DNA of 49,969 bases, from assembly GCF_016793225.1 (NCBI RefSeq), contig NZ_JAEUMN010000126.1:1-49969 (forward strand). The letters are read 5' to 3'. The stretch comes from Phenylobacterium sp. (GTDB lineage Bacteria > Pseudomonadota > Alphaproteobacteria > Caulobacterales > Caulobacteraceae). Shown piece after piece: positions 12,072-47,818 of the stretch. Under the pieces are notes generated by a model that was given only the letters and a program-made list of their open reading frames with translations, had not been told where the DNA came from and ran no database searches. Both the position numbers and the translations under genes were made by a program. Position 1 is the first letter of the stretch. Each line of letters begins with the position of its first letter.

Positions 12072-12752
12072 TCATCTGTCGGCTCGGATCGCCCGACAGG
12101 CTGGCTGGCGTCGCCGACGACGGATCGCCGCGCCGGTCGCGCCGAAACCGGCGATCATCAGGGTCCAGGTCGAGGGCTCCGGCACGGCCCCCAGCGGGTC
12201 GCCGAAAACTCGCAGCGAGAAGTCGAGGTCGTTCGTCGCGCTCCAGGTCCCGGTCGAGCGGCGGTGGGTGGCCTCCTTCACGGTCGGGTTCGGCGCAAAG
12301 AAGGCAAGGCCGCCCTCGTACTTGTCGTCCTCCCGGACCTCGAAGGTGATCCAGTACTCGCCGGGGCCCAGGACCACGTTCGCGCCGTGCACCCCGTGCC
12401 AGCCGTAGCCGAAGGGGACGTCTTCCGGAGGGATGTCGATCTGGGCGGAGAAGATCTCGCTGCCGGGAACCGCCCCGAGGCTGTCGGCGATCCCCATGTG
12501 GACCGACTGCGCCACCGGGTTGAGCGAGAAGAAGCTCTCGAAGTCGGTGATGCGTGTGGTCTGCGACAGGGTGAACGCTGCGGCGAGCCCGATGTGGTCC
12601 GGTGCGGGATGAGCCAAGGCGAACGCGCCGAGCGCCCATACGGCGGAGGGGAAGTGCACCTCGCCCGTGTCGACGATGACGTCGGCGGCGGCGGGCGCCG
12701 CGGGAAGGGCGAGCAGCGCGGCGGCGACCAGCGGTGCGAGTGACCTGGACAT
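12072..12752 (-). CDS. PEPxxWA-CTERM surface protein, copy 1
   Basis: An exported protein of 226 residues. It has a signal peptide (about 1-23, cut near AAPAAA-D), a beta-rich body, and a C-terminal PEP-CTERM type sorting signal: VPEPSTWTLMIAGFG, a hydrophobic stretch, then RRRRR. PEP-CTERM proteins are processed by an exosortase and often go with exopolysaccharide. Unlike copies 2 and 3 this copy has T in place of the A of the WA motif, and a longer tail after the arginines (about 11 residues), so sorting may be altered. The body is very similar to copies 2 and 3 (SLSQTTRITDFESFF, SEIFSAQ, GVHGANVVLGPGEYWITFEVRED). Function unknown; the body may be a beta-sandwich. Confidence 0.9.
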   Translation of the reverse strand: MSRSLAPLVAAALLALPAAPAAADVIVDTGEVHFPSAVWALGAFALAHPAPDHIGLAAAFTLSQTTRITDFESFFSLNPVAQSVHMGIADSLGAVPGSEIFSAQIDIPPEDVPFGYGWHGVHGANVVLGPGEYWITFEVREDDKYEGGLAFFAPNPTVKEATHRRSTGTWSATNDLDFSLRVFGDPLGAVPEPSTWTLMIAGFGATGAAIRRRRRQPACRAIRADR

Positions 12753-12838
12753 CGATCTGAACCCCCATCTTCGAGCGGCCCGGCGAACCGGGACGACTCC
12801 TGGACTTGTTGGCTATCCCGGGCCGGGAGGTCCGCGCC

Positions 12839-12854
12839 TCACCTGTTTGGGTGA
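12839..12854. promoter_or_regulatory. Conserved dyad upstream of PEP-CTERM copy 1
   Basis: TCACC-N5-GGGTGA type dyad (TCACCTGTTTGGGTGA) with its far end 102 bases upstream of the start codon. The same 16 bases occur upstream of copies 2 and 3. Likely binding site of a dimeric regulator; the neighbouring NarL-type response regulator is the obvious candidate, by inference. Confidence 0.6.
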
Positions 12855-12860
12855 TGGACA

Positions 12861-12940
12861 CGCCAGCGGGCGGCGGCGCGATCCGCATCGCCCTCGGCTA
12901 GGACAACCAGCGATGGCGACGTGTGCTCCCGGCGCCCGGG
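12861..12940 (+). pseudogene. Fossil of the response-regulator 5' end (between copies 1 and 2)
   Basis: This stretch aligns with the start of the response-regulator gene at about 14661-14740: both share GGGCGGCG, the block GATCCGCATCGCC, then AGGAC, ACC and GCGATGGCG. It has point changes, a one-base indel and an in-frame TAG, so it no longer codes. It shows that the duplicated unit once included the regulator's beginning together with the dyad and PEP-CTERM gene. Confidence 0.7.
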
Positions 12941-12944
12941 CGGC

Positions 12945-13592
12945 TCAGGCCGGCTCGTAGCGTCGCCGGCGACGGATCGCCGCGCCGGTCGCGCCGAGCC
13001 CGGCAATCATCAGGGCCCAGGCCGAGGGCTCCGGCACGGCCGTCAACGGATCGCCGAAGATGCGCAGCGAGAAGTCGAGATCATTCGAGGCGTCCCAGAC
13101 GCCCGTCGAGCGGCGATGGCTAGCCTCCTTCACAGTCGGGTTCGGCGCAGAGAAGGCGAGGCCGCTCAGGAAGAAGCTATCGTCCTCCCGCACTTCGTAG
13201 GTGATCCAGTACTCGCCGGCTCCCAGCACCACGTTGGCCCCGTGCACGCCGTACCACCCATAGGAATCGCCGTCGCCCTCGGGTTGGAGGTTCACCTGGG
13301 CTGAGAAGATCTCGCTGCCGGGAACCGCTCCGAGGCTGTTGGCGATCCCCATGTGGATCGACTGCGGCTGCGTTATGAGCCCGAAGTAGCTCTCGAAATC
13401 GGTAATGCGGGTCGTCTGCGACAGCGTGAACGCAGCGGCGCGCCCGATGTGGTCGCCAGAAAACTCCCCGAGCGCCCAGATGGTGGTTGGGGACTCCACC
13501 TCGCCGGTGTCGACGATGACGTCGGCGGCGGCGGGCGCCGCGGGAAGGGCGAGCAGCGCGGCGGCGGCGAGCGGTGCGAGTGACCTGGACAT
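12945..13592 (-). CDS. PEPxxWA-CTERM surface protein, copy 2
   Basis: Paralogue of the two flanking genes, 215 residues. Signal peptide about 1-23, identical in its first residues to copy 1 (MSRSLAPL then AAALLALPAAPAAA). The same beta-rich body follows, and the sorting tail starts near residue 186: VPEPSAWALMIAGLG, hydrophobic stretch, RRRRRYEPA. The tail is canonical for PEPxxWA-CTERM (P-E-P-x-x-W-A). The roughly 110 bases upstream are almost identical to those of copy 1, showing a recent duplication. Probably a secreted or surface protein linked to the exopolysaccharide produced by the genes further right. Confidence 0.92.
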   Translation of the reverse strand: MSRSLAPLAAAALLALPAAPAAADVIVDTGEVESPTTIWALGEFSGDHIGRAAAFTLSQTTRITDFESYFGLITQPQSIHMGIANSLGAVPGSEIFSAQVNLQPEGDGDSYGWYGVHGANVVLGAGEYWITYEVREDDSFFLSGLAFSAPNPTVKEASHRRSTGVWDASNDLDFSLRIFGDPLTAVPEPSAWALMIAGLGATGAAIRRRRRYEPA

Positions 13593-13678
13593 CGATCTGA
13601 ACCCCCATCTTCGAGCGGCCCGGCGACCCGGGACGACGCCTGGACTTGTTGGCTATCCCGGGCCGGGAGGGCCGCGCC

Positions 13679-13694
13679 TCACCTGTTTGGGTGA
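13679..13694. promoter_or_regulatory. Conserved dyad upstream of PEP-CTERM copy 2
   Basis: Same 16-base dyad TCACCTGTTTGGGTGA, again with its far end exactly 102 bases upstream of the start codon, inside a block nearly identical to the one upstream of copy 1. Confidence 0.6.
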
Positions 13695-13758
13695 TGGACA
13701 GGTCATGACGCCGACGCGGCTTCGTCCTTCGTCCTTGCCGCGCCGCAGCGACGCCTCG

Positions 13759-13810
13759 TTCGAGCGACGAGGAAGCCATGGCGTCGCCGGGCGGCGTGAG
13801 GATCCGGTGG
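13759..13810 (+). pseudogene. Fossil of the response-regulator 5' end (between copies 2 and 3)
   Basis: TTCGAGCGACGAGGAAGCC, then GCCGGGCGGCG and GATCCG, matches the response-regulator start region at 14633-14680 (TTGGAGCGACAGGAAGCC, GCCGGGCGGCG, GATCCG) with small indels. Only about 50 bases remain recognisable. It is the second remnant of the amplified unit. Confidence 0.6.
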
Positions 13811-13829
13811 TTGGGGGCGCCCGCGCGCC

Positions 13830-14474
13830 TCAGGCCGGCTCGCAGCGACGCCGACGACGGATCGCCGCGCCGGTCGCGCCGAAGCCGGCGATCATCAGGG
13901 CCCAGGCCGAGGGCTCGGGCACGGCCCCCACCGGGTCGCCGTAGATCCGCAGGGAGAAGTCGAGGTCGTTGGAAACGCCCCAGTTCCCCGTCGAGCGGCG
14001 GTGGCTGGCCTCCTTCAGGGTCGGGTTCGGCGCGTAGAAGGCAAGACCGCTCTCGAACGTGTCGTCCTCGCGGACTTCGAAGGTGATCCAGTACTCGCCT
14101 GGGCCCAGCACCACGTTCGCGCCGTGCACCCCGTGCCAGTCGTAGAAGTCGCCGCCCTGCTCGGCCGCGATGTTGACCTGGGCCGAGAAGATCTCGCTGC
14201 CGGGGACCGCCCCGAGGCTGTTGGCGATCCCCATGTGGAGCGTCTGCGGCTGCGCATTGAGCCCGAAGAAGCTCTCGAAGTCGGTGATCCGGGTGGTTTG
14301 CGACACGGTGAACGCCGCGGCGAGACCGATGTGGTCGTCACCGAACTCTCCGATCGCCCAGACGGCGAAGGGGAACTCCACCTCGCCGGTGTCGACGATG
14401 ACGTCGGCGGCGGCGGGCGCCGCGTGAAGGGCGAGCAGCGCGGCGGCAGCCAGCGGCGCGAGTGACCTGGACAT
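13830..14474 (-). CDS. PEPxxWA-CTERM surface protein, copy 3
   Basis: Third paralogue, 214 residues, with signal peptide (about 1-23), the shared body (TVSQTTRITDFESFFGL, LGAVPGSEIFSAQVN, GVHGANVVLGPGEYWITFEVRED) and tail VPEPSAWALMIAGFG plus RRRRRCEPA. It is divergent from the response-regulator gene, with the shared dyad lying between them, and is probably the founding copy because its upstream neighbour is the intact regulator. The shared motif HRRST and the acidic patches could bind ligand, but nothing catalytic is seen. Confidence 0.92.
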   Translation of the reverse strand: MSRSLAPLAAAALLALHAAPAAADVIVDTGEVEFPFAVWAIGEFGDDHIGLAAAFTVSQTTRITDFESFFGLNAQPQTLHMGIANSLGAVPGSEIFSAQVNIAAEQGGDFYDWHGVHGANVVLGPGEYWITFEVREDDTFESGLAFYAPNPTLKEASHRRSTGNWGVSNDLDFSLRIYGDPVGAVPEPSAWALMIAGFGATGAAIRRRRRCEPA

Positions 14475-34056: not shown

Positions 34057-36306
34057 TTACCATGGTTTGGCCGCCGCGCGCCTGAGCTCACGGATGGCGC
34101 CGTAGAGGTGGTAAAGCGACGTGGCCGGCGAGGGCTCTTCGAGGAACGCGCCGTCCGCGGCCATCCGCTCGCGCCAGCACCCCGGCTGAGGCGTGTCGAG
34201 GAAGGCAAGCAGGCCGTTCGCGGCCTCCAACGCCGCCCCCTGCTCGCCGAGCAGCACGGCCGCCTTCAGGTGCTCGGTCTGCGCCCACAGCCTGGCGCCG
34301 CCGTCCCGCACCGACAGGTCCGGCCAGACGGCGTTCTGGACGACCCCTCGCCCTGCGTCCCAACCCTTGCGCCCGGCGGCGAAGAGGCGCCGCGCGGCAT
34401 CCGCCGCGTCCGCGTCCCCCCGCGCGTTCGACCATTGGTGCAGCAGCCATGCCCACTCGAACTGGTGCCCAGGCTCGATGAGGCCGGCTTCGCCGTCCAC
34501 GGCGCTCCATCCGGCGTCGAAGAACTCTCGAACCGCCCCGGTCGCGGGATCGATGAACCGCCGCAGGGAAAGCGTCGCCACCTCGTCGGCCAGCGCCCGA
34601 GCCCAACCCGGAGCCCCTGCGGAGTCCCACGCCAGCGCCGCCTCCAGCAGGTGCATGTGGGCGTTGGCCTGGAACGGTTGCGGCCCAGCCTCTCGATAGC
34701 CGCCTTCGGGGTGCTGGAACTGCGTCCTGAGGCGTTCCGCGATCGAGGCCGCCTCTCCCGCTGCGTCGCCGTCACTCCGGCTGAGCGCGCAGAGCGCCAA
34801 CAGCACGAACGCGTGCTCATAGAGCCGCGGCTCAGGGTCGGTCACCTGACCTTCCACGGAGAAGGCGGTCGCATACAGGCCGTCCGCCCGCCTTCCCTGA
34901 CGGCGGAACCAGCCGAAGCCGTCCCGCGCCAGCATGCTCCAGGGGCCTGTGATCCCGTCCGCGTCGGCGCTTGCGAACACGAAGGCCTGGCGCGCCTGAA
35001 CGCGCGCACGTCTCCTGACATCGTGAACCGACCCGTCCCAGGTCAGGGCTTCGCGAAAGCCCCCCGTGGCGGCATCGACGCCCTGCGTCGCCCACAGCGG
35101 CAGGGCTGCGGCGTCCAGCCAGACGCCGAACCATTCGGCCGCCTCTTCGAAACTCCCGAAGGGCGTGCGGCGCGGCCGAAGCACGGGCTCGGGCGCGCGC
35201 ACCAGCACGGCCTGCGACGCGGCCACCACCGCGACGTTCGCGCCGACGACGGCGACCTCGACGCCCGGCGCCGCGCGCACCGATGCGAGAGCCGTGGCCG
35301 CCCGAGCCTCCCGGACGTCCTGGGCGGCCTCCAGCCCGCACACGAGCACGGCGTCCGGTTCCGCCACGACGACCAGCCGCCTCGCGCCGACGACCCGGAC
35401 GTCCACCCCGTCTGCTGCCCGCACCAGAACCTGCGACGCGCCGGGCGCCTGCACGCCCGACGTGAGGCTGTTGCCGTGCACATCCTGCTCGGATGCGGCA
35501 AGCACCGCATCCCAAGCGCCCAAGTCCGACCAGGCCCATTCAACCGGCAGCACCGCCCCCCGGTCGGTGCGTTCCATGACGGCGCGGTCGAAAGCGATCC
35601 GGGGCGCCCGACCGTAGCTCGCCCCGAGCCGGACCGCACCCGCCTCGGTCTGGACTTCCCGCAACGCAGCCTCGACCGCGCTCGCCACCTCCGCCGCATG
35701 GCGCGCGATCTCGTCCTGCAGCACCTGCGCCCGGGCGACGAAGACGCCGCCGTTCCAGAGCGCGCCCTCCGCGACCAGGGCCGCCGCACGCGCCGCGTCA
35801 GGCTTTTCCAGGAACTCGGCGATCGGCCGCACAGGCTCCCTTCCCTGCGCCGGCCGGATGTATCCGAGCGCCGTCGAGGGGCGATCCGGCCGCAGCCCCA
35901 GGGTGACGATCGCCCCGCCACGCGCGGCGACGACGGCCACCTCGACGGCGTCCCGAAAGGCGTCCGTGTCCGGGATGTGATGATCGGCGGGGAGCACCAC
36001 CAGCACGGCGTCCGGATCCTCTTGGGCGGTCCAGGCGGCCGCCGCGGCGATCGCCGGCGCGGTGTCGCGGCTCTCCGGCTCCAGGATGATGAGCGCGTCC
36101 ATGTCGACCGCCGCGAGCTGCTCACGCACGAGGGCCTCGTCCCGCGCCGCCGCTGAGACGATGATCTGGCCGCCGGCCAGCGCCCGGGCGCGCAGGAGCG
36201 CCGCCTGGAAGGTCGAGCGAGTCCCCAGAAGCGGGAGGAACGGCTTTGGCCGCCCGGGCCGCGACAAGGGCCAGAGCCGCTCGCCGACCCCGCCGCAGAG
36301 GATCAA
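34057..36306 (-). CDS. Mannose-1-phosphate guanylyltransferase / AGE epimerase fusion
   Basis: Two enzymes in one 749-residue chain. The N-terminal nucleotidyltransferase (about 1-340) has the signature LILCGGVGERLWPLSR with its GxGxRLWPLSR-x-x-x-PK-like core (PGRPKPFLPL), ADHHI and FLEKPD. The C-terminal half (about 385-749) is an N-acylglucosamine 2-epimerase/mannose-6-phosphate-isomerase-like alpha/alpha barrel with RARVQARQAFVFA, QANAHMHLLEAALAW, EPGHQFEWAWLLHQW and TEHLKAAVL. Together they could isomerise a sugar phosphate and make GDP-mannose. Start is unresolved: no ATG or GTG lies upstream in frame; only a TTG inside the motif (36306) or a rare ATA at 36327. The frame does continue upstream as IASPVYP, which matches the family's start. 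Confidence 0.9.
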   Translation of the reverse strand: MILCGGVGERLWPLSRPGRPKPFLPLLGTRSTFQAALLRARALAGGQIIVSAAARDEALVREQLAAVDMDALIILEPESRDTAPAIAAAAAWTAQEDPDAVLVVLPADHHIPDTDAFRDAVEVAVVAARGGAIVTLGLRPDRPSTALGYIRPAQGREPVRPIAEFLEKPDAARAAALVAEGALWNGGVFVARAQVLQDEIARHAAEVASAVEAALREVQTEAGAVRLGASYGRAPRIAFDRAVMERTDRGAVLPVEWAWSDLGAWDAVLAASEQDVHGNSLTSGVQAPGASQVLVRAADGVDVRVVGARRLVVVAEPDAVLVCGLEAAQDVREARAATALASVRAAPGVEVAVVGANVAVVAASQAVLVRAPEPVLRPRRTPFGSFEEAAEWFGVWLDAAALPLWATQGVDAATGGFREALTWDGSVHDVRRRARVQARQAFVFASADADGITGPWSMLARDGFGWFRRQGRRADGLYATAFSVEGQVTDPEPRLYEHAFVLLALCALSRSDGDAAGEAASIAERLRTQFQHPEGGYREAGPQPFQANAHMHLLEAALAWDSAGAPGWARALADEVATLSLRRFIDPATGAVREFFDAGWSAVDGEAGLIEPGHQFEWAWLLHQWSNARGDADAADAARRLFAAGRKGWDAGRGVVQNAVWPDLSVRDGGARLWAQTEHLKAAVLLGEQGAALEAANGLLAFLDTPQPGCWRERMAADGAFLEEPSPATSLYHLYGAIRELRRAAAKPW

Positions 36307-36796: not shown

Positions 36797-37489
36797 GTGC
36801 TCAAGGCGATGACGGACGTCCTCGCACGAACGACAGAGGAAGGCGCGGCGACAGACCGGCCGACCGCGGCGCGTGGTCGCGACGTCGAGGTCTCCGCGGC
36901 CTCCAGCGTGGCGAAGCGCTGCATCGACATCGCCGGCGCCGCCCTCGCCCTCCTGGCGTTCCTGCCGCTCCTGCTCACCATCGCCCTGCTCGTGCGCATC
37001 GAGTCCGGCGGTCCGGTGATCTTCAAGCAGCGGCGGACCGGCCGCGGCGGGCGCGTCTTCACGATCTACAAGTTCCGGACCATGACGGTGGCCGAGGATT
37101 GCGCCAACGTGCGCCAGGCCACTCGCGGCGACTCGCGCGTGACCGCGGTGGGCGCGGTGCTGCGGAAGCTCAGCCTGGACGAGCTGCCCCAGTTCCTGAA
37201 CGTCCTGAAGGGCGACATGTCGATCGTCGGCCCTCGGCCGCATGCTCTCGCCCACGACGAGCACTACGCCGAGCACATCCCGACATACCGCGACAGGTTC
37301 CGCGCGAAGCCCGGCCTTACCGGCCTCGCGCAGGTCAATGGGCTCCGTGGCGAGATCCGGGACATCGACTGCATGCGCGACCGGATCGCCGCCGACAACC
37401 TCTACATCGACAGCTGGTCGCTGGGCCTGGACTTCGCGATCCTCGCCAAGACGGCGGTCATCATTTTCCGCGATCCCCAGGCGTACTGA
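36797..37489 (+). CDS. Initiating sugar-phosphate transferase 1 (short form)
   Basis: Polyprenyl-phosphate glycosyl-1-phosphate transferase of 230 residues, starting a repeat unit on undecaprenyl phosphate. It has a single re-entrant membrane helix (about 45-70) preceded by KRCIDIAGA, then QRRTGRGGRVFTIYKFRTM, LDELPQFLNVLKGDMS, IVGPRPHA and KPGLTGLAQVNG, with the catalytic Asp-Glu pair in LSLDELPQ. This is the compact monotopic form without the extra Rossmann domain. Start GTG at 36797 after AGGAG; MTDV at 36809 is an alternative. First of three such enzymes in a row. Confidence 0.92.
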   Translation: MLKAMTDVLARTTEEGAATDRPTAARGRDVEVSAASSVAKRCIDIAGAALALLAFLPLLLTIALLVRIESGGPVIFKQRRTGRGGRVFTIYKFRTMTVAEDCANVRQATRGDSRVTAVGAVLRKLSLDELPQFLNVLKGDMSIVGPRPHALAHDEHYAEHIPTYRDRFRAKPGLTGLAQVNGLRGEIRDIDCMRDRIAADNLYIDSWSLGLDFAILAKTAVIIFRDPQAY

Positions 37490-37640
37490 CGCCGCTTCGG
37501 CGCCATGGTTGACGATTGATCAACGCCGCATGCAACCGAACGGTCGCATCGTCCGAATATAGAGCGACCGCCCGGGAAGGACGGGGCCGTGGCGCGGCTC
37601 TTGCTCGGTTCCCGGCGTGGTCGACGGGACGGCGGGGAAG

Positions 37641-37871
37641 ATGTCCGGAATTGAAACGCGGTTCGGAGCCGAGGAAGACGCCGAGCGCATTCGCGCCGCC
37701 TTCTACGGCTTTCTCAACGCGCACGAGGGCGAGGTCGACGGCGATGCCCGGATCTCCACCGAGATCGGCTCCCGGGGCCCCCGCCTCAGCGTCCGGCTCT
37801 GGAGCCCGGAAGCCATGGAGGCGTTCCTCCGCGGACTCGGCAAGCCTGACCGCCGAGCCTGCTATGAATAA
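37641..37871 (+). CDS. Unknown small protein (76 aa) overlapping transferase 2
   Basis: A 76-residue protein starting MSGIETRFGAEED, with an alternating polar beta-like middle (GEVDGDARISTEIGSRGPRL) and a helical end (SPEAMEAFLRGLG). It is cytoplasmic, acidic and unknown to me. GGGGAAG precedes the ATG. It overlaps the start of the next sugar transferase by 8 bases, so translation is likely coupled. It may be a regulator or partner of that enzyme. Confidence 0.6.
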   Translation: MSGIETRFGAEEDAERIRAAFYGFLNAHEGEVDGDARISTEIGSRGPRLSVRLWSPEAMEAFLRGLGKPDRRACYE

Positions 37872-38571
37872 GCTGGCGGAGTTTCATGGTCATGCCGAGC
37901 CGGCCAAGTGGACGCCTGCCAGCCCGCCCCGGGCCGCCGTCGCGCCACTCCCGCAGGCCGTTCCGGTGAAGGCCAAGGTCGCCACCAGCCGGCGCAAGCG
38001 CGCCTTCGACATCGTGATGGCGCTGGGCGCGCTGCTCGTCTTCCTGCCCCTCCTGCTCACGATCGCTGTTCTCGTCCGCGTCGAGACGCCTGGTCCGGCG
38101 CTCTTCCGGCAGCGCCGCACGGGCCTGAACGGCGTGATCTTCACGGTCTACAAGTTCCGCACCATGACCGTGGCCGAGGACGGCGACGTCGTACGGCAGG
38201 CGACCCGACAGGACGCCAGGGTCACGGCGCTCGGGTCGATCCTGCGCAAGTTCAGCCTCGACGAGCTGCCCCAGTTGCTGAACGTCCTGAAGGGCGACAT
38301 GTCGCTGATCGGCCCGAGGCCGCACGCGGTCGCCCACGACGAGGCCTGGAGCAAGACGGTGCCCGGCTACGACCAGCGTTTCCGCGCGCGCCCGGGCCTG
38401 ACCGGCTATGCCGCGGTCTGCGGTTTCCGTGGCGAGGTCCGCGACCCGCAGGCGATCATCGACCGGGTCCAGAGCGACAACGAGTACATCGATACCTGGT
38501 CCTTCGCGCTCGACATGAAGATCGTGTGGCGGACCCTGCCGCTGATCTTCGGCGACGAACGCGCCTACTGA
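37864..38571 (+). CDS. Initiating sugar-phosphate transferase 2 (short form)
   Basis: A 235-residue paralogue of the first transferase, with a longer proline/alanine-rich N-terminus (about 1-35), one membrane helix (about 50-75), FRQRRTGLNGVIFTVYKFRTM, LDELPQLLNVLKGDMSL, IGPRPHA and RPGLTGYAAVCGFRGE. The catalytic region is intact. It differs from transferase 1 mainly in the N-terminus and the region after KPGLTG, which often sets sugar choice. The ATG overlaps the preceding small gene. Confidence 0.92.
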   Translation: MNKLAEFHGHAEPAKWTPASPPRAAVAPLPQAVPVKAKVATSRRKRAFDIVMALGALLVFLPLLLTIAVLVRVETPGPALFRQRRTGLNGVIFTVYKFRTMTVAEDGDVVRQATRQDARVTALGSILRKFSLDELPQLLNVLKGDMSLIGPRPHAVAHDEAWSKTVPGYDQRFRARPGLTGYAAVCGFRGEVRDPQAIIDRVQSDNEYIDTWSFALDMKIVWRTLPLIFGDERAY

Positions 38572-38637: not shown

Positions 38638-40113
38638 ATGGCCGACGATACCGGCGCCTTCCGCGCCGTTCCTGAAACTCAGGACGCCGCGCCTGTCCAT
38701 CGGCGTGGCCCGCTGCGTCCGGCGCAGCTGCACAGCGTGCGGTCGCGCATTTCCGGCGCGGGCCTGGCGCGCCTGTTCCAGGCCGGCGACGTCGCGGCTC
38801 TGATGGCGGCGTCGAGCGTCGCGACGCTCCTGACCCGGCTTCCCGAGGTGATGTGGCTGGGCGCGCCGATGCTGGCGCTCTTCCTGCTCGTCGCCACCGG
38901 CGCCTATTCGATGAACGCGCGCGAGCGCGCGCGCCGCCGTTTCGGCCGCCTGCTGCTGGCGGCCGCCGCGGCGGGCGGCGGCGCGGGGGCCCTCTACGCG
39001 GCCTTCGACCCGGCCTTCCCGATGATCGCCTGCACCATCTGGGTGGCCGCGGCCGCGACCGCGCTGTGCGTGAGCCACATCGCCTGGCGAGCCGTCGTCC
39101 GCACGCTGCGCAGGAAGGGGCACATCACCCCGAACCTCATCATCGTAGGGGGCACGTCGGCCGCGCAACGCCTGATCCGGCGCGCGCTCAGGACCCGTGA
39201 CGTCAACATCCTCGGCATCTTCGACGACCGCCGCGACCGGGTCGGCCCGGAAGTGGCGGGCGTCCCCGTGCTCGGCAAGACCGCCGACCTGATCGACCAC
39301 CGCATCCTGCCTTTCGTCGACCGCATCGTGATCACCGTGCCGCCCAAGGCCAGCGGGCGCATCGCCGAACTGCTCGAGCGGCTGGCGCCGATCCCGAACC
39401 CGATCTCGCTCCTCCTCGACGACGCCGACGACGAAACCGAGGCCCAGGCTGTCGGTCGCGTCGCCGACTTCGACCTCGCGCACATCTCGGGGACTCCGGA
39501 GAAGTCCGGCTACCTCGCCGCCAAGCGCGTCCTGGACCTGACGCTCTCGGTGATGGGCCTGATCGCCCTCGCCCCGCTGATGCTGGCCGTGGCGGTCGCC
39601 ATCAAGCTCGACAGCCCCGGCCCCGTCTTCTTCCGCCAGCGCCGCCACGGCTACATGAACGAGGAGTTCCTGGTCTGGAAGTTCCGCTCGATGCGGGTCG
39701 AGGCGACCGACCACAAGGCGGCCCGCCAGGTGACCGCCGACGACGACCGCGTCACGCGCGTGGGCCGGTTCATCCGCAAGACGAGCCTCGACGAACTGCC
39801 GCAGATCTTCAACATCATCACCGGCGAGATGTCGATCGTGGGCCCCAGGCCCCACGCCATCGGGATGCTCAGCGGCGGCGCCGAGGCCTCGAAGCTCGTC
39901 GAGACCTATGCCCACCGGCACCGGATCAAGCCGGGCCTCACCGGCTGGGCCGCGGTCAACGGCAGCCGGGGTCCGGTCGACACGCCCGAGGATGTCCGCC
40001 GCCGCGTCGCCCTCGACCTCGAGTATGTCGAGCGCCGCTCCTTCTGGCTCGACGTCGCCATCATCCTGCGCACCGCGCCCTGCCTCCTCGGCGACAGCGG
40101 AGCCGTACGCTGA
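38638..40113 (+). CDS. Initiating sugar-phosphate transferase 3 (long form, WcaJ/HfsE-like)
   Basis: A 491-residue exopolysaccharide polyprenyl glycosylphosphotransferase. N-terminal membrane segments (about 45-150), a Rossmann-like CoA_binding_3 domain (about 160-275), and the C-terminal transferase with KRVLDLTLSVMGLIALAPLMLAV, FFRQRRHGYMNEEFLVWKFRSM, TSLDELPQIFNIITGEMS, IVGPRPHA and KPGLTGWAAVNGSRG. The type is that of WcaJ/HfsE, which adds glucose-1-phosphate in known members. The start is ATG 38638 (MADDTGAFR). In Caulobacter the holdfast system is known to use several redundant initiating transferases (HfsE, PssY, PssZ); the three here may be a similar set. Confidence 0.93.
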   Translation: MADDTGAFRAVPETQDAAPVHRRGPLRPAQLHSVRSRISGAGLARLFQAGDVAALMAASSVATLLTRLPEVMWLGAPMLALFLLVATGAYSMNARERARRRFGRLLLAAAAAGGGAGALYAAFDPAFPMIACTIWVAAAATALCVSHIAWRAVVRTLRRKGHITPNLIIVGGTSAAQRLIRRALRTRDVNILGIFDDRRDRVGPEVAGVPVLGKTADLIDHRILPFVDRIVITVPPKASGRIAELLERLAPIPNPISLLLDDADDETEAQAVGRVADFDLAHISGTPEKSGYLAAKRVLDLTLSVMGLIALAPLMLAVAVAIKLDSPGPVFFRQRRHGYMNEEFLVWKFRSMRVEATDHKAARQVTADDDRVTRVGRFIRKTSLDELPQIFNIITGEMSIVGPRPHAIGMLSGGAEASKLVETYAHRHRIKPGLTGWAAVNGSRGPVDTPEDVRRRVALDLEYVERRSFWLDVAIILRTAPCLLGDSGAVR

Positions 40114-40146: not shown

Positions 40147-40737
40147 ATGTCACGCCTCGCCGTCCCCTTCGTGGCCGCCATCCTCTTTGCCGGTCCCGCC
40201 ACCGCCGGCGAGGCCTTCGTCGGCGTCTACGCTCACGACATCGACGACGGCATTTCCTACGGCAAGTTCGAGGACGGGGCGCAGATCGTCGGCGGCGTGC
40301 GGACGACGGCCCTCGACGAACTGGCGTTCCTCGGCCGGCCGCGCGTGCACCTGCTGGCGGGGCTCAACACCTCGGGCGGCGTCAACTACGTCGCCAGCGG
40401 CCTCGCCTGGCGGTTCGACCTGACGAAGCGCCTTTACGTCCAGCCCGGCCTCGGTCTGGCGATCCACGACGGCCGGGTGGCGTTCCCTTCCCCGGACGAG
40501 CCGGGCATCAGCCCTGCGGAGCGCCTGAAGCGTCTGAACGACTTCCAGACGAAGCTCGACCTGGGCTCACGCGTGCTCTTCGAGCCCGAACTCTCCATCG
40601 GCTACAAGGCCACGCGGCGGCTCTCGCTCGAACTCTCCTGGATTCACCTGAGCCACGGCCGCCTCGCCGGGCGCTACAACCCCGGCGTCGGCGACGTCGG
40701 ACTGCGCGTGCTCTATCGCTACGGCCTCGACCGCTAG
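40147..40737 (+). CDS. PagL-like lipid A 3-O-deacylase
   Basis: A 196-residue outer-membrane barrel with a signal peptide (about 1-20, cut after ATA-G). It carries the PagL active-site pattern His167-Leu-Ser169 in SWIHLSHGRLAGRYNPG, with the family NPG. PagL removes the 3-O acyl chain of lipid A, altering LPS. I do not see the PagL acid at the expected offset, so the catalytic triad is not fully confirmed. It follows the third transferase by 33 bases on the same strand and overlaps the convergent synthase-like gene by 4 bases. Confidence 0.85.
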   Translation: MSRLAVPFVAAILFAGPATAGEAFVGVYAHDIDDGISYGKFEDGAQIVGGVRTTALDELAFLGRPRVHLLAGLNTSGGVNYVASGLAWRFDLTKRLYVQPGLGLAIHDGRVAFPSPDEPGISPAERLKRLNDFQTKLDLGSRVLFEPELSIGYKATRRLSLELSWIHLSHGRLAGRYNPGVGDVGLRVLYRYGLDR

Positions 40738-42200
40738 CCGAAGCGCTTGCGCAGCTTCTTGATCACGAGGTTGGGGTTCCGCATCGCGCGGCCGAGCGGC
40801 CTCAGGACGTCGCGATAGTCCCCGTAGCGGTTGATCGGCAGGCTAAGCAGCTCGGGCCAGGCCAGCTCGATGCCCCGGATGATCATTCGGTTGGTGCGCC
40901 GCCAGTCGGGCGGCAGCGACAGCATGGCGGCGAACGCCTCGCGGGAGATCATGGGGTGGATCGCATAGTTGTCCGGCGTGGCGTACGCCTGCGCGAAGGC
41001 CCAGCAGCTCATGCGAAGCTCAAGGTACGCAAGGTCCATCATCAGATAGCCGTCCACGGGCGGGACCGTCGCCATCCATTGCTCCACCGCCGAGACGACT
41101 TCGGGGCTGATGGGCATCCCGAAACGGACGGCGATGTCGTGCGCGGAGTGCTGGCTCGCCTCGGTGTCGGTGGGCCGCCAGAAGAAGGCGCGCCCGATCT
41201 CCCCCCCGAGTCCTCCGGAAACGAAGTCGAACGACGCCAGCGCCTCGACGGTCGGGAAGCTCAGCATGTTCGGACCGCCGATGCTGTGGCCGGCGCGCGC
41301 ATGCCATTGTTCCGCCTGCTCGGGCGTGGCGTAGCGGATGGGCAGCAGGCGGTGATTGAGTCCGAAGCGCTTGGCGAGTTCCTGCGCGCGCTTGGCGTCG
41401 AGCCGCGTCTCGACGCTGTCGACCGTGTAGAAGTTCAGCTGATCCTTGATCTCGCGACAGGCCGCCAGGATCATTCGCGTCTCGTTGCCGGCCGTGAGCG
41501 TCGTCGTCAGCCTACCGCCCGCGTGAAGCGCGCGGACCGTGTCGACGATGGAGGCGTTGATCCGCCGGATAGCCGCATCGGGATCGTCGGTGATGGCGAT
41601 CTGGCCGGTGGGCCAGTGACGGTGCGTACGGCCTTCGTCCAGGTCCAGGTAGTGATTGCACATCAGCCGCGAGATCCCGACGTGCGCCGTCAGGCCGGCC
41701 GGAAACCAGCCGTCGGCGCGCACATTCAGGAACTCGTGGAGCTCGCGCCGGAACCGAGCGTCGTACGCCTCGCGGTCCAGCAACAGGCCCGCCGTCGCGG
41801 CACAGACCTTGCGTTCCGCGTCATAGACGGCGGAAAGCGACCCATCCGCGTCCAGGTAGACCCGGCGCGCCGTCGGCTGGTCGAGGATGAAGAGGAAACT
41901 GCCCGAGTGGCCGAAGACGAAATCCTCGACGAATGCGTCCAGTTGCGCAGCGCTGGGCGCCGGGGCGTCCAGCCGGATGTCCTCCTGGATCACCGCGCCC
42001 CGGCGATAGTCCACGGGGAAACCCAGGAAGCCGCCGAGCAGCGCGCCGTCCGCCGCGTAGACCCGCCGGAGCGGGATCCGCCCGATCGTGACGACCTCGA
42101 GGTCGTTCAGCACCGCCGTCTGGCTTCCCGCCGGAGGGGTCACCACCCCGCACCGAGCGACCGTGAATTGCCGGTCGAAGCTCTCAGGGTAGGCGATCAT
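40734..42200 (-). CDS. Degenerate asparagine-synthase-like protein
   Basis: A 488-residue protein with the overall layout of the asparagine synthase family: an N-terminal half (about 1-205) and an ATP-pyrophosphatase-like half (from about 210). In the PP-loop, the usual SGGxDS is LTAGNETR (235-242); GGLGGEIGRAF comes later. There is no N-terminal Cys2 amidotransferase start. Such homologues are frequent in exopolysaccharide gene clusters and are thought to modify sugars or transfer amino groups, but the altered ATP loop makes activity doubtful. Gene is convergent with the PagL-like gene and divergent from the methyltransferase. Confidence 0.8.
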   Translation of the reverse strand: MIAYPESFDRQFTVARCGVVTPPAGSQTAVLNDLEVVTIGRIPLRRVYAADGALLGGFLGFPVDYRRGAVIQEDIRLDAPAPSAAQLDAFVEDFVFGHSGSFLFILDQPTARRVYLDADGSLSAVYDAERKVCAATAGLLLDREAYDARFRRELHEFLNVRADGWFPAGLTAHVGISRLMCNHYLDLDEGRTHRHWPTGQIAITDDPDAAIRRINASIVDTVRALHAGGRLTTTLTAGNETRMILAACREIKDQLNFYTVDSVETRLDAKRAQELAKRFGLNHRLLPIRYATPEQAEQWHARAGHSIGGPNMLSFPTVEALASFDFVSGGLGGEIGRAFFWRPTDTEASQHSAHDIAVRFGMPISPEVVSAVEQWMATVPPVDGYLMMDLAYLELRMSCWAFAQAYATPDNYAIHPMISREAFAAMLSLPPDWRRTNRMIIRGIELAWPELLSLPINRYGDYRDVLRPLGRAMRNPNLVIKKLRKRFG

Positions 42201-42340
42201 TTACGTCCTCACCTAAAATATCGGCCGCTGATTCCTGTTCGGCTCGGCGGCGCTCTAGACTCCGTCACAGTTCGACCGTCAATCCTGGCTTGGCGGCGTT
42301 CTGATGAAGGGCCTCCTATTACACAGTTCGGATCGAATTG

Positions 42341-43060
42341 ATGAACGACGCGCCGGCCGCCAATCACAAGACCCGTCTGCGGCTCGCCGACACGGCAGAT
42401 CCGACGTCCCTGTCCAGCCGCTTCCGGCAAAAGCGGGACCTGCGGCTGCGCGAACTCATCGGCGGCATAGCGGGCGGCGGCAAACCGCTGCGCATCCTGG
42501 ATGTAGGGGGATCGGTCGAGTACTGGCGGCGCGTGGGCCTGGACTTCCTGCGCGACGTCGACGCCCGAGTCGTCGTGATGAACGTGACGGCCTTCGAGCT
42601 GAAGGCGGAAGGCGCCGACGCCACCCTGTTCGAGGCGGTGGTCGGCGACGCCTGCGACCTCTCGGCCTACCCTGACGGCGGCTTCGACCTGGTGCACTCG
42701 AACTCGGTGATCGAGCACGTGGGCAACTGGAGCCGCATGAAGCAGTTCGCGAGCGAGACGCGACGCGTCGGCCGCAGCTACTACGTGCAGACCCCGTACT
42801 ACTGGTTCCCCATCGAGCCGCACTTCTACCGGGCGCCCATGATCCACTGGATGCCGCGCCCGCTGGCCGCTCGAGTGATGACGACGTTCCCCGTGACCTA
42901 CTCCGGCAAGGCGAAGTCCCTCGACGCCGCCTTCGGCGTCCTGGACGGCACTCAGCTCATCGACCGGCGGCAGTTCCGCTTGCTGTTCCCGGATGCGCAG
43001 CACGTCTCGGAGCGCGTCCTGGGGCTCACCAAGTCGCAGATCGCCATCCGTCGCGCATGA
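42341..43060 (+). CDS. SAM-dependent methyltransferase
   Basis: A 239-residue class I methyltransferase: motif I ILDVGGSVEYW (about 52-62, DxGG instead of DxGxG), VVVMNVTAFEL, the acidic pocket GDACDLS, and FDLVHSNSVIEHVGNW (motif with the typical SNSVIEHV of the sugar/EPS methyltransferases). The target is unknown; O-methylation of a glycan is a reasonable inference from the neighbourhood. Start ATG 42341. It is followed after 88 bases by the adenylation-carrier-acyltransferase gene and likely cotranscribed with it. Confidence 0.87.
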   Translation: MNDAPAANHKTRLRLADTADPTSLSSRFRQKRDLRLRELIGGIAGGGKPLRILDVGGSVEYWRRVGLDFLRDVDARVVVMNVTAFELKAEGADATLFEAVVGDACDLSAYPDGGFDLVHSNSVIEHVGNWSRMKQFASETRRVGRSYYVQTPYYWFPIEPHFYRAPMIHWMPRPLAARVMTTFPVTYSGKAKSLDAAFGVLDGTQLIDRRQFRLLFPDAQHVSERVLGLTKSQIAIRRA

Positions 43061-43148: not shown

Positions 43149-45734
43149 GTGAGCACAGCCGCAGGCAAGCCCGGCTGCGCCTTCGCGCGTGACCTCGAGA
43201 GTTTCGGATCGACGGCGGCCGTCGTCACGGACGCCGGCCGTACGGTGACGTACGCCGAGCTCGCCGGCCTCGCGGACGCGTTCGCCGCACGGCTGGGCGC
43301 CCAGCGCCGCCTGCTCCTGATCGAAGCCGCCAACGCCCTCGAGCCCCTGGCCGCATACCTGGGCGCGCTGCGGGCCGGACATCCGGTGATCCTGACGGCG
43401 GCCGGAGGAGATCACTCGCGGCTGGTCGAGGCCTTCCGGCCGGATGCGCGCTACGCCCTGGTCGGCGCCGAGTGGCGCCTGACCCTGACCGACGCCGCAG
43501 GTCCCGAGCTGCACCCCGAGCTGGCCGTCCTGCTCTCGACCTCCGGCACCACCGGGGCGACGAAGCTCGTTCGCCTGAGCGGAGATGCGGTTGAGGCCAA
43601 TGCCCGGTCCATCGTGGAGTACCTCGGCATCACCGCGGACGACAGAGCCGTCACCTCGCTGCCGTTCCACTACAGCTACGGCCTCTCCGTCATCAATTCT
43701 CACCTGCTGGCGGGCGCGACCGTCCTGCTCACCGACAAGTCTGTGGTCGAACCCGCGTTCTGGAGCTTCGTCGAAGGCCAGGGCGCCACATCACTGGCCG
43801 GCGTGCCCTACACCTATGAGCTCCTCGAACGCGTGCACTTCCGGGATAGAGCCCCGGCCACGATCAGGACGCTGACCCAGGCGGGCGGGCGCCTGCCGCC
43901 CGAACTCGTGCGGCGGATGGCGGAGTGGGCGAAAGGGCGCGGCGTCCAATTCTTCGTCATGTACGGGCAGACGGAGGCGACCGCCCGGATGGCATACCTG
44001 CCGCCCGACGTCGTCCTCGATCGCCCCGAGGCTATCGGCCGGCCGATCCCGGGGGGCGAGTTCCGCCTGATCGACGAGGACGGCGGCGCCTTGGACGGCG
44101 TCGAGGAAGCCGGGGAGCTGGTGTACCGCGGCCCAAACGTCATGATGGGCTATGCGACGGCCGCCGACGATCTCGCGCGGGGTCGGGACCTGGATGAGCT
44201 CCATACGGGCGATCTGGCCGTCAGGTCCGCGGACGGGCTCTATCGGATCACGGGGCGCAAGAGCCGTTTCGCGAAGATCTTCGGGCTGAGGATCAGCCTC
44301 GACGAGGTCGAGGCGCGGCTCGGCCAGCTGGGCGTGCGGGGCGTCGTCGTCAGCGACGACGAGTTGATCTACGTGGCGCTGACCGAGGACGGTGACCCTG
44401 CGGTTGTCGGGCGTCAGCTGTCCACGGACTACAAGATCCCGGCCAGCGTGTTCCACGTGGCCACCTGGAGCGAACTCCCGACGCTCCCGTCCGGAAAGGT
44501 CGACTACCAGTCCATCCTGCGCCAGTCCCGCGCGCGCGCGTCTGGCGCCCCGGTGGAGGCCCCCTCGTCAGCCAACCCCATCGACGCCGCCTTCGCGCAT
44601 GCGTTTCCCGGCAAGACCATCAAGGCCGACGACAGCTTCGTCAGCCTGGGCGGGGACTCGCTCAACTACGTTTCCATGTCGCTGGACCTCGAGAGGATCC
44701 TCGGCTTCCTGCCGGAGGATTGGGAGCAGCTCAGTCTGCGGGACCTGACGGCTTTGCAGCCTCTCTCGGAGCCTCGCCGCTGGTGGAGCCTGCGCACGCT
44801 GGAAACCGAAGTGGTCCTGCGGATGCTCGCCATCCTGGCGGTGGTCGTGAATCATGCGTCGGACCTGGTGGTCGGCGGCGGGGCCGAGGTCCTGCTCATC
44901 CTCGCCGGCTACAACCTGGCCCGCTACCAGAAAGCCCGCCTTAGGGAGGGCCGCGCCTTCGAGTTCACGCTCTCGTTCGCGCGTCGGATCATCCTGCCCT
45001 ACTACCTGCTCCTGGTGCTCTACCTCGCCGCCAAGCAGGACTTCGATGTTCCGTCCCTGCTCCTCGTCAGCAATTTCTTCGGGCGCTTCAGTTCACTCCT
45101 CGAGCCGTTCTGGTTCCTCGAAGCGATCATCCAGTCCCTCGTGATCGTCTCGGCGATCACCTTGCTGCCCCCGGTCCGACGCGCCATCGCAGCCGATCCG
45201 TGGAGAGCGGGACTGGCGTTCCTGGTGGCTGCAACGGTGTTGAAATGCGCCGCCTTCGCCATCTTCCAGCACGATCACCTCGTCAACCGCACGCCGGACT
45301 CGACGCTTCTTCTCATCGCCGTCGGCTGGTGTGTCAACGAAGCCGTGACACGGGCTCGCCGCACGCTCATGACGGGCGTGCTGCTGGCGCTTGCCGTGCT
45401 CTCCGTGGTGGGCGTGCCCGGGCTGTGGCAGCCCTACCCCCAGCCCTCGAGCTACGCCCACGCCGTGTGGCTTTCGGCCAGTGCGGTCGGGATGCTGTGG
45501 ATGCGACGCATCCCGGTCCCTTCGATCCTGCACGGCCTCGTCGGCGCCGTGGCCGCAGCCAGCTTCTACATCTACCTCACACACGTCGCGCCGCTCTGGC
45601 TGCTCTACTGGAAGCTGGGCGTGAAGAACCTGGGGGTGAACCTCATTGCAGCGGTGGCCTTGGGGCTCGCGACCTGGTGGGCCGCCGACCGGTTCGCCGA
45701 GTTCGCCAGCCGTCGCCGGGCCGCCGCGTCCTGA
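43149..45734 (+). CDS. Adenylation domain-carrier-acyltransferase-3 fusion
   Basis: An unusual 861-residue protein with three modules. (1) An AMP-binding (ANL) adenylation domain, about 1-460: P-loop LSTSGTTGATKL (about 129-140), MYGQTEATARM, the ITGRKSRFAKIFG A8 motif, and the C-terminal catalytic Lys450 in LPSGKVDY. (2) A carrier domain, about 470-550, with phosphopantetheine Ser504 in LGGDSLNYVS. (3) A multispanning acyltransferase-3 domain, about 555-860 (OatA-like), with the conserved His569 in VVVNHASD. One chain could activate an acid with ATP, hold it as a thioester, and pass it to an acceptor at or across the membrane, likely a glycan. GTG start is uncertain (no good ribosome site). 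Confidence 0.92.
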   Translation: MSTAAGKPGCAFARDLESFGSTAAVVTDAGRTVTYAELAGLADAFAARLGAQRRLLLIEAANALEPLAAYLGALRAGHPVILTAAGGDHSRLVEAFRPDARYALVGAEWRLTLTDAAGPELHPELAVLLSTSGTTGATKLVRLSGDAVEANARSIVEYLGITADDRAVTSLPFHYSYGLSVINSHLLAGATVLLTDKSVVEPAFWSFVEGQGATSLAGVPYTYELLERVHFRDRAPATIRTLTQAGGRLPPELVRRMAEWAKGRGVQFFVMYGQTEATARMAYLPPDVVLDRPEAIGRPIPGGEFRLIDEDGGALDGVEEAGELVYRGPNVMMGYATAADDLARGRDLDELHTGDLAVRSADGLYRITGRKSRFAKIFGLRISLDEVEARLGQLGVRGVVVSDDELIYVALTEDGDPAVVGRQLSTDYKIPASVFHVATWSELPTLPSGKVDYQSILRQSRARASGAPVEAPSSANPIDAAFAHAFPGKTIKADDSFVSLGGDSLNYVSMSLDLERILGFLPEDWEQLSLRDLTALQPLSEPRRWWSLRTLETEVVLRMLAILAVVVNHASDLVVGGGAEVLLILAGYNLARYQKARLREGRAFEFTLSFARRIILPYYLLLVLYLAAKQDFDVPSLLLVSNFFGRFSSLLEPFWFLEAIIQSLVIVSAITLLPPVRRAIAADPWRAGLAFLVAATVLKCAAFAIFQHDHLVNRTPDSTLLLIAVGWCVNEAVTRARRTLMTGVLLALAVLSVVGVPGLWQPYPQPSSYAHAVWLSASAVGMLWMRRIPVPSILHGLVGAVAAASFYIYLTHVAPLWLLYWKLGVKNLGVNLIAAVALGLATWWAADRFAEFASRRRAAAS

Positions 45735-45764: not shown

Positions 45765-47408
45765 TCAGAGGATGAAATCGCTCGCCGTCATCGTGCCGAC
45801 GCCCACGACGCGGATGGCGAAATCGGCGACGCCATCGCCGTTGAGATCGCCCATCACCCGCACTTCCGTCTTCGAAACCGCCTCGTACCGCAGTTCGCCG
45901 GGGTTGCGCGTGAAGGCGCCGGCGCCGAGGAACCTGAAGTCGTGGTCGCCGGCGATCAGGCTGTTGGCATCGATCGAGTGCACGTTGATGCGGTCGCCGT
46001 CGGCGCGCGAAAAGTCCGCGATCAGATCCGTGCCGCCCCTGCCGATATAGCTGCCGGCGAAGACGAAGCGGTCGGCTCCCCCGCCCCCGATGAGATGGTC
46101 GTTCCCGCCGCGGCCCGTCAGAAGGTCGTTGCCCTCGCCGGCATTGAGCGTGTCGTTGCCGCCGAGGCCGACCAGCGTGTCGTTTCCGAGCCCCCCCCGC
46201 AGCGGGGTGTCGGCGTTGCTCTTGGCCGCCAGCTTCTGGTCTGCGGTCACGTCCGTCGCCACCACAGGCTCCCCGTCGCCGAGGGCGCCCAGGACGTAGT
46301 TCACGGCCGCGCTGCCCGTGAGGTCTGCGACGGTTTCCAGGACGACACTGTCGTAGTAGCCCGGCAGGGACGCATCGACGGGCTGGGCGATCGTGTTGCT
46401 CCCGATGTGACCCGCATTGGTGTTCTGCACATCGGTGATGAAGCCCAGGATGTTGTCCACGACCGTCACGTGGTGGGTCTTGTCGGTCAGGTAGATGCCG
46501 GGCGGCTTGTTGTCCTCTCCGGGCGTCTGCAGGAAGACGTTGCCGCGGATGGTCGACGCGGAGGTGTTCTCGAGGCGCACGCCGATCGAGTTGCCGTTCA
46601 GGAGAACGTTCCCCGACACCTCCACACCCCGGAAGCCGACGTTGTTGCCGTTGTCGTCGAGGTAGATGCCAAGGATCGCGATCCCGTCGCCCTGTTCGAT
46701 GTGGTTGTTGGTGATCCGGATGTCGGTGCTGGCGGCGCCCTGGGACTTGTTTGTCCAGAAGTGGATGAAGTCGGCGTGATCGCCCTTGCCCCAGTTCCAA
46801 GGGTGCGACGACGAGAGCGTGTTCCCGTCGACGACCATGCGGCTGACCTCGGCGCCCGTGACCATGCCGGTGCGCATGTCCTCGATGTGGTTGCCCCGGA
46901 TCGCGACGCCCGAGACCTTGTAGAGCACGACGCCCTTGAAGAAGCTCGAGATGTCGTTGCCGTCGATGCGGACATCGCTCGACCGCTCGATCGAGACGGC
47001 CCGGGCAGTTGGAAGGCCGAGCACGTTCCCCGTCGAGTCGGTGTCCGCGGCGGTCCTCGGCACCCCGGTCACTGCGCCGCCGCCCTTGATCGTCCCCCCC
47101 GAGAAACTGATGTCGCTCGACGCGCTGATTTTGACGGCGGAGGAATAGGTGGTGGTGGCGGCGTTGGGCGTGAAGTTCACTGTCAGGTTGCTGAAGCTGA
47201 GCCCGGACGACCCCGCGACGGTCAACGAACGAAGAACGGCCTCACGCGCCGGATCGGCGGACGTGATCGTCACGTCCGTAGCGAAGGTCATTCCCGCGAT
47301 ACTGACATCGCCGTAGTTCCCCGGCGCCAGCCTGATGACGTCGCCCCCCTTGGCGGACGCCAGCACGGCGCTGAGCTGAGACGAGTTTGCCACGAGCATG
47401 TCCGCCAC
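45765..47408 (-). CDS. Secreted beta-helix protein with RTX calcium repeats
   Basis: A 547-residue protein with no N-terminal signal peptide but C-terminal RTX nonapeptides (about 405-460: LRGGLGNDTLVGLGGND, LNAGEGNDLLTGRGGND, LIGGGGADRFVF), as in type I-secreted proteins. The N-terminal 370 residues form a right-handed beta-helix (repeated SSDVRIDGNDIS, VAIRGNHIED, IRITNNHIEQ, TIRGNVFLQ), of the kind found in polysaccharide lyases and alginate epimerases. It may bind or modify the extracellular polysaccharide; no catalytic residue can be assigned. Start GTG 47408 after GGAGAG; the TTG at 47423 is worse. No type I secretion genes are in view. Confidence 0.87.
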   Translation of the reverse strand: MADMLVANSSQLSAVLASAKGGDVIRLAPGNYGDVSIAGMTFATDVTITSADPAREAVLRSLTVAGSSGLSFSNLTVNFTPNAATTTYSSAVKISASSDISFSGGTIKGGGAVTGVPRTAADTDSTGNVLGLPTARAVSIERSSDVRIDGNDISSFFKGVVLYKVSGVAIRGNHIEDMRTGMVTGAEVSRMVVDGNTLSSSHPWNWGKGDHADFIHFWTNKSQGAASTDIRITNNHIEQGDGIAILGIYLDDNGNNVGFRGVEVSGNVLLNGNSIGVRLENTSASTIRGNVFLQTPGEDNKPPGIYLTDKTHHVTVVDNILGFITDVQNTNAGHIGSNTIAQPVDASLPGYYDSVVLETVADLTGSAAVNYVLGALGDGEPVVATDVTADQKLAAKSNADTPLRGGLGNDTLVGLGGNDTLNAGEGNDLLTGRGGNDHLIGGGGADRFVFAGSYIGRGGTDLIADFSRADGDRINVHSIDANSLIAGDHDFRFLGAGAFTRNPGELRYEAVSKTEVRVMGDLNGDGVADFAIRVVGVGTMTASDFIL

Positions 47409-47818
47409 GAATACTCTCCACAATTACGGTTGTAGTTGTCCGCGCACACTACGGACAGACGAAATCCGTCGTAACGCGCCCCTAGAGAGGACGTCGTTGA
47501 AATTGCGGAGTCGTTACGATGATTGTTCGGATCGATCTAGAGGGTGCGACGATTGCGCACGCCAAGTCTAGCCGAAATGTAGGCTGACAATTTAGCGCCA
47601 CATTTATGACTATGTTGAGCCAATACTTAATGGCGAGACGGTGGCGCATGCCGCGGCCGCCGAGCGGCAACACCGCCATCTCCGGCACGCCACGGCGCCC
47701 GTCGCGTCCATACGCCGGGGCGGCGCCGCGACAGGCGGCCTGCGACGACTTTCAGGGCAAGGGTTCGAGGCGACCCGACGGCCGCCGCGATTTCACGACG
47801 TCAACGCCCGCGCGCGGC
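47409..47818. other. Gene-free, relatively AT-rich spacer
   Basis: About 410 bases between two leftward genes. The stretch 47440-47640 is more AT-rich than any coding region nearby and presumably holds the promoter of the beta-helix gene. A loose inverted pair CGCCACATT... / ...TAATGGCG flanks 47600-47635. Open frames on both strands here are short and lack family features. Confidence 0.5.

Follow-up and report, generated by a model that had tools for sequence, protein, structure and literature searches.

The 49,969-nucleotide stretch of Phenylobacterium sp. DNA analysed here (the window) carries on its forward strand a gene that joins an adenylation (A) domain, a carrier (T) domain and a membrane acyltransferase-3 (AT3) domain in one A-T-AT3 chain, laid out as follows.

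43149..45734, +, A-T-AT3 gene, GTG start, 861 aa
43149..44528, +, adenylation (ANL) domain, residues 1-460, Pfam AMP-binding; codon of the A10 lysine, Lys450, at 44496-44498
44556..44768, +, carrier (T) domain, about residues 470-540; Ser504 codon at 44658-44660, within LGGDSL
44781..45731, +, membrane AT3 domain, residues 545-861; Arg558 codon at 44820-44822, His569 codon at 44853-44855; RxxR absent

We consider it likely, judging from its sequence, that this protein is a self-sufficient, carrier-fed transmembrane acyltransferase. Its A domain would activate a free carboxylic acid with ATP to the acyl-adenylate, as the conserved ANL motifs suggest; the acyl group would then be loaded onto the phosphopantetheine arm on Ser504 and, by analogy with the AT3 family, handed on with the help of His569 to an extracytoplasmic acceptor. 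In the window organism, the polysaccharide whose synthesis the surrounding genes encode is the most probable acceptor. If true, AT3 enzymes gain a second type of donor beside acyl-CoA, one protein acylates the surface straight from a free acid, and the transfer of acyl groups across membranes could be studied in a single polypeptide.

The fused chain and its relatives

A sequence-only reading of the window had described the protein as a one-chain fusion and singled out Lys450, Ser504 and His569, and both points proved correct. The frame at 43149-45734 (+) is single and uninterrupted, reading is open from 42993, and the GC content at the three codon positions from there (0.69/0.50/0.87) has the pattern of a coding frame. 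Separation of the parts by a frameshift was looked for and excluded, and, like a chance fusion, is ruled out by the single frame and the conserved relatives. Of the three Pfam domains expected by that reading, AMP-binding (3.2e-44; 151.7 bits, cut-off 29.9) and Acyl_transf_3 (PF01757; 1.5e-11; 44.4 bits, cut-off 31) were matched above cut-off, the latter together with the R-x10-H motif bearing out the third domain as an acyltransferase; the carrier domain, PP-binding, is taken up below. When 54 of the 83 members in alignment A2 were scanned singly at E<=0.1, AMP-binding and PP-binding each matched 54/54 and Acyl_transf_3 47/54, the other seven including both SGNH-type Photobacterium proteins.

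Across the aligned family, the A10 lysine Lys450 and the DSL-motif serine Ser504 are each kept in 92/92 members, and Arg558 and His569 in 90/90, two Photobacterium rows being set aside. Arg558-x10-His569 corresponds to the R-x10-H motif in the first transmembrane helix (TMH1) of AT3 proteins, as given in the passages of PMC9833829 drawn on here. An AF2 model of the whole chain reached a mean predicted local distance difference test score (pLDDT) of 91.5 and a predicted template modelling score (pTM) of 0.60, and its top Foldseek match was an EntE-EntB adenylation-carrier fusion; the AT3 domain modelled alone gave pLDDT 92.6 and pTM 0.91. The organism's own genome contains one match to an ACPS-family phosphopantetheinyl transferase, which we count in favour of a carrier-fed enzyme. 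PADLOC, consulted for an anti-phage role, gave no match for the window enzyme.

A pattern scan of named genomes returned at least 584 relatives, the best 80 of which were kept for analysis. The relative is encoded as a single long frame in 78/80 loci (57 Actinomycetota, 19 Pseudomonadota, one cyanobacterium and one unplaced), and 76 of these 78 chains keep the AT3 Arg and His; L048 and L065, which have no full frame, were excluded from the alignments and iron-box counts, and L019 and L027 are near copies. Full-length orthologues of >50% identity were found in 4/36 genomes of the window's genus, its own included. Matches at E<=1e-90 occurred in 16/199 genomes of the taxonomic family and 4/289 of the class, and the A domain alone was matched at E<=1e-70 in 21/398 genomes of the phylum, these E-value counts taking in A-only and A-T proteins besides A-T-AT3. 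Plasmid records gave 99 matches, and 'AMP-binding protein' is the name that the matched feature mostly bears in the 50 records listed. A-T-AT3 proteins form a widespread, unnamed family. We found no report of the architecture in open-licence papers, and what would be new is an AT3 enzyme bearing its own carrier-loading module.

Two further chains begin with a Condensation domain, one of 1366 aa in L028, a Phenylobacterium metagenome genome (5721-9821, +; directly upstream of an A-T-AT3 gene), and one of 1341 aa in L013 (88-4113, +). Both are nonribosomal peptide synthetase (NRPS) modules with an AT3 at the end.

Donor, acid and membrane partners

Pantetheine borne on a carrier is without the 3'-phosphate present on CoA, and the RxxR motif in TMH3 of AT3 proteins bears on this difference. 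Both arginines were present in 26/27 ordinary AT3s vs 0/92 carrier-fused AT3s (90 of the family and two NRPS-type), the control being non-redundant hmmsearch matches from the fetched loci and tilted in that 13 of the 27 were profile seeds, picked by eye, that show the motif. The first arginine is missing in 92/92 carrier-fused AT3s and in 8/8 further cases, among them the AT3s encoded next to an A-T gene in L184 and L192 and the L181/L182 pair; the AT3 of that pair, with a much higher Pfam score, may be a separate acquisition. In the OafB simulations described in the passages of PMC9833829 cited here, R74 (the second Arg of RxxR), R14, R338 and K279 lie on the CoA 3'-phosphate. Because one arginine of RxxR touches this phosphate, the broken motif fits a carrier-borne rather than an acyl-CoA donor for the fused AT3s, as far as their alignment tells. 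The use of free acid and ATP by way of the carrier, as proposed in the sequence-only reading, is thus supported by the conserved ANL motifs, Ser504 and the RxxR that is not intact. RxxR is likewise not intact in an A-T-AT3 chain of L011 (1069-3831, +) whose A domain looks closer to the amino-acid kind, with SFDVS at the A4 region.

The A-T part also occurs with other membrane partners. In Photobacterium (L070 and L100), an SGNH (GDSL-type) domain follows A-T in place of AT3; an MBOAT gene (Pfam MBOAT) lies directly downstream in L100, and the downstream frame of L070, cut by the contig end, is 55% identical over 192 aa to it. A-T and AT3 are separate adjoining genes in L184 and L192, and L147 has genes for a small carrier, A, LuxE, LuxC, MBOAT and an AlgX-like SGNH protein. 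Judged by domain content, the Photobacterium A-T-SGNH and MBOAT genes are a DltA-DltC-DltD-DltB parts list in two genes, and the A-T part is one paired with interchangeable membrane transfer parts. These natural swaps, together with the RxxR loss, strengthen the Dlt-like logic suggested earlier. The Dlt pathway (DltA, DltC, DltB, DltD) likewise activates an acid with ATP, loads it onto a carrier and carries it through the membrane to an external polymer, with the same A, carrier, SGNH and MBOAT parts as the Photobacterium relatives. Unlike Dlt, the window system is one chain with AT3 in place of MBOAT and DltD, and its A domain is without the amine-binding Asp, so that D-alanine is probably not its substrate. 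No DltB (MBOAT) or DltD partner was found in the window chain or among the neighbours scanned, and DltA models were not among the best 25 of 81 NCBIfam matches.

Comparison with other known systems revealed partial likeness in each case. With OafB, OatA and HGSNAT the protein shares Pfam Acyl_transf_3 and R-x10-H, but it has an in-chain carrier, a TMH3 RxxR that is not intact and no SGNH domain. An aryl-acid adenylation/carrier pair, EntE-EntB, gives the best whole-model fold match and likewise has an A domain with a substrate other than an amino acid, whereas the Ent proteins are soluble siderophore enzymes with pocket residues that differ from those of the window A domain. The nearest concept named by the sequence-only reading, epsilon-poly-lysine synthetase, also has A-T followed by membrane segments; it ends in tandem condensation-like domains and uses lysine, whereas the window protein has AT3 and no amine-binding Asp. 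In the reviewed AT3 fusions (AT3-SGNH, AT3-alanine racemase), AT3 is also joined to a second enzyme, but the partner is C-terminal there and here is an N-terminal, donor-supplying A-T didomain; the AT3 review PMC9558356 nowhere uses the word 'adenylation', and its passages drawn on here name the SGNH and alanine-racemase fusions and no A-T fusion.

The acid was approached through the A-domain pocket, the positions of which were read off printed alignments by hand. At the amine-binding Asp235 position (GrsA numbering), 60 of the 92 family members have Cys and 32 have Ser; the role of this Asp, and its absence in aryl-acid enzymes, are described in the parts of PMC11253843 used here. Because this position is Cys/Ser in 92/92, an alpha-amino acid is an improbable substrate, and of the acyl or aminoacyl substituent proposed earlier the aminoacyl option is disfavoured. 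The ten-residue pocket is nearly constant across the family (S/C-Y-S-G-T-A-M-A-R-K), a conservation partly selected for by the two peptide patterns of our scan, which included pocket residues; the exact SYSGTAM[A/P]RK recurred in 14/19 other A domains that genome searches had brought up, L190 and L191 being left aside. We know of no match for this code, and the acid could not be named from it. The acid appears to be the same or similar family-wide.

Some stand-alone A proteins have a similar pocket and are set in cassettes of the following kind (n=12, in fetched regions).

L183, L186-L191, L195-L199: stand-alone A cassettes with LuxE, LuxC, mostly a carrier and FabG; NeuB or DegT near many

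Nearby were LuxE in 12, LuxC in 12, a carrier in 11 and FabG in 9, and NeuB (nonulosonate synthesis) lay within seven genes of the stand-alone A in 6/12; L186 also has a Maf flagellin glycosyltransferase. Left out of the 12 were L147 (carrier, LuxE, LuxC) and L146, which has carrier, FabG, DegT and PglD-like genes and no LuxE/LuxC among the genes listed. These cassettes probably make an acyl group for sugar acylation. We infer that the acid of A-T-AT3 is also used in sugar acylation and, because the A domain of the sugar-acylation cassettes is of this kind, would guess at a short hydroxy- or oxo-acid.

Polysaccharide genes and iron boxes

The window gene is surrounded by genes for polysaccharide synthesis, with an upstream methyltransferase as its direct neighbour.

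42338..43060, +, SAM (S-adenosylmethionine) methyltransferase-like gene directly upstream, Pfam Methyltransf_11
38638..40113, +, HfsE/WcaJ-type polyprenyl-phosphate sugar transferase
37516..38571, +, bacterial sugar transferase
36797..37489, +, bacterial sugar transferase
34057..36306, -, mannose-1-phosphate guanylyltransferase and GlcNAc 2-epimerase-like domain, fused, 749 aa
32757..34208, -, UDP-glucose/GDP-mannose dehydrogenase; homologue of 71-72% in L019, L027, L200
29128..30387, +, NAD-dependent sugar epimerase/dehydratase; 71-72% in L019, L027, L200
19572..21542, +, Polysacc_synt_2 (CapD-like) enzyme; 67-68% in L019, L027, L200

Eight Phenylobacterium-clade relatives (L017, L018, L019, L026, L027, L028, L077, L200) likewise lie among such genes, and, in seven of these loci, genes for an AAA ATPase and for rhamnose follow downstream. 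In L017, L018, L019, L026, L027, L077 and L200, this AAA/nSTAND-type ATPase of ~510 aa stands directly downstream of A-T-AT3, before the rhamnose genes, and it is also present with the orthologues in the short loci L170 and L171; none of these polysaccharide, ATPase or rhamnose genes was seen in L016 (a more distant paralogue), L029 or L185. The polysaccharide locus proposed from sequence therefore stands for the window copy and these eight relatives, and was rejected as a general rule on the actinobacterial and plasmid contexts: none of nine annotated plasmid regions has recognisable polysaccharide genes beside the A-T-AT3-type gene. The suggestion that the adjacent methyltransferase prepares the substituent found no support, as its homologue was found in the L200 cluster and not in the other seven Phenylobacterium-clade loci.

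Outside the Phenylobacterium clade, the setting is a different one. A three-gene putative ferric ATP-binding cassette (ABC) transporter, related to one that plasmid records annotate for iron transport, adjoins the gene in 31/80 kept loci, all 31 Actinomycetota and L048 counted among them. Its four arrangements are spread across the FastTree tree (long branches flagged; the label stands on 30 rows, L048 not being on the tree), and it is present in three of the nine plasmid regions (L106, L108, L114). The 'ferric' label rests on plasmid-record annotation and the iron boxes; with NCBIfam, the L106 transporter genes reached no cut-off, and the best names for the substrate-binding protein and ATPase were 2-aminoethylphosphonate ones. 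A DtxR-type box (TWAGGTWAGSCTWACCTWA; at least 15 of 19 positions, scanned from -300 to +60 of the start) was found in 53/61 actinobacterial loci vs 1/1768 control windows of the same loci, the 61 not being independent, since many come from Streptomyces or Arthrobacter that are related to one another and two plasmid loci, L108 and L114, are very similar to L037 and L043. The box is also present in 21/27 actinobacterial loci without the adjacent transporter trio. In rhizobial-type promoters, TTGAC-N8-TCA, a palindrome with variable spacers that we take to be the pattern of RirA boxes, was found in 10/12 vs 19/1200 control windows (66/1200 for the looser TGA-N9-TCA), a count in which the promoters are partly related and TTGAC is also a -35 box. 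The DtxR-type sites resemble the DmdR1 sites in Table 1 of PMC7174319, the part of that paper used here.

From these promoters, the A-T-AT3 enzyme looks like an iron-starvation gene in Actinomycetota and, probably, in Rhizobiales, and the boxes suggest a physiological role for a gene otherwise annotated mostly by its AMP-binding domain in the plasmid records listed. An Iron-Rhodo-box was rejected for Rhodobacterales, where TGA-N9-TCA occurred in 0/3 loci and a one-mismatch look-alike only in two Leisingera loci. Upstream of the window copy, no iron box was found (best Fur 9/19, DtxR 11/19); a Fur, Irr or Zur site was rejected on low best scores, obtained without a shuffled control. A Fur-like 15/19 match in L017 was not counted, as it seemingly falls within the coding sequence upstream, and the counterpart in L018 reaches only 12. 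A link between an AT3 protein and metal starvation is also described for AimS of Acinetobacter in the passages cited here of a preprint (PMC13345540); unlike the window protein, AimS is AT3-only, with no A-T part, and its RxxR is present and needed.

Rival readings and remaining genes

Several results weigh against a carrier-fed enzyme that acylates a glycan. The PP-binding match of the window protein (0.0024) reaches 18.5 bits, under the cut-off of 20.8 that relatives P0002 and P0005 pass and P0003 and P0004 do not, and the AT3 domain model found no PDB match at E<=0.001, so that its identity rests on Pfam and motifs. The RxxR control is tilted as described, the second Arg is kept in 63/92 carrier-fused AT3s by alignment, and Arg558 is kept although its OafB counterpart also contacts the CoA 3'-phosphate in the simulations of PMC9833829. 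As for the acceptor, it need not be a glycan, since the near relative L029 lacks the polysaccharide genes and most contexts seen outside Phenylobacterium are not polysaccharide loci. The retained second Arg and R558-x10-H569 would also suit an AT3 domain working on ordinary acyl-CoA, with A-T doing something separate and the fusion being mere co-location, and AT3s are described as acyl-CoA users in the passages of PMC9833829 and PMC12423673 drawn on. RxxR is, however, broken in all 92 fused AT3s and in both AT3s encoded next to an A-T gene, and AT3, SGNH and MBOAT parts all occur with A-T, by fusion or by pairing, which makes this explanation highly improbable in our view.

More weight is due to a single-module NRPS-like enzyme for the synthesis or completion of a small molecule that is secreted or lipid-linked, perhaps an iron chelator in actinobacteria, with AT3 acylating that molecule and not a glycan. 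The Condensation-bearing chains of L013 and L028, the several copies that are lone genes, the DtxR-type boxes, the transporter genes in their four arrangements and the RirA-like palindromes all speak for it; the glycan loci of the window copy and its eight Phenylobacterium-clade relatives, the like A-domain code in sugar-acylation cassettes and the lack of recognised partner biosynthetic genes beside the lone copies read speak against it, and on balance we find it rather doubtful. Unlikely, though worth stating, is that the family as a whole is an iron-starvation system: under iron shortage, a common metal-binding cytoplasmic acid, fixed by ester or amide on the cell surface or an exported acceptor, would serve as an iron trap at the surface and pass ferric iron on to the neighbouring ABC transporter, Phenylobacterium having repurposed the enzyme for its polysaccharide.

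Other genes of the window were noted in passing. A beta-helix protein with RTX calcium repeats (45765-47423, -) adjoins the A-T-AT3 gene and has relatives of 29-30% in L017, L018 and L077. On the upstream side, a 488-aa protein (40734-42200, -) has no Pfam match, is asparagine-synthase-like by eye and has a 32% relative in L026. Three similar secreted proteins of 214-226 aa lie in tandem at 12072-14474 (-); a PEPxxWA-CTERM signal was found in the one scanned, and the organism's own genome contains one exosortase match.

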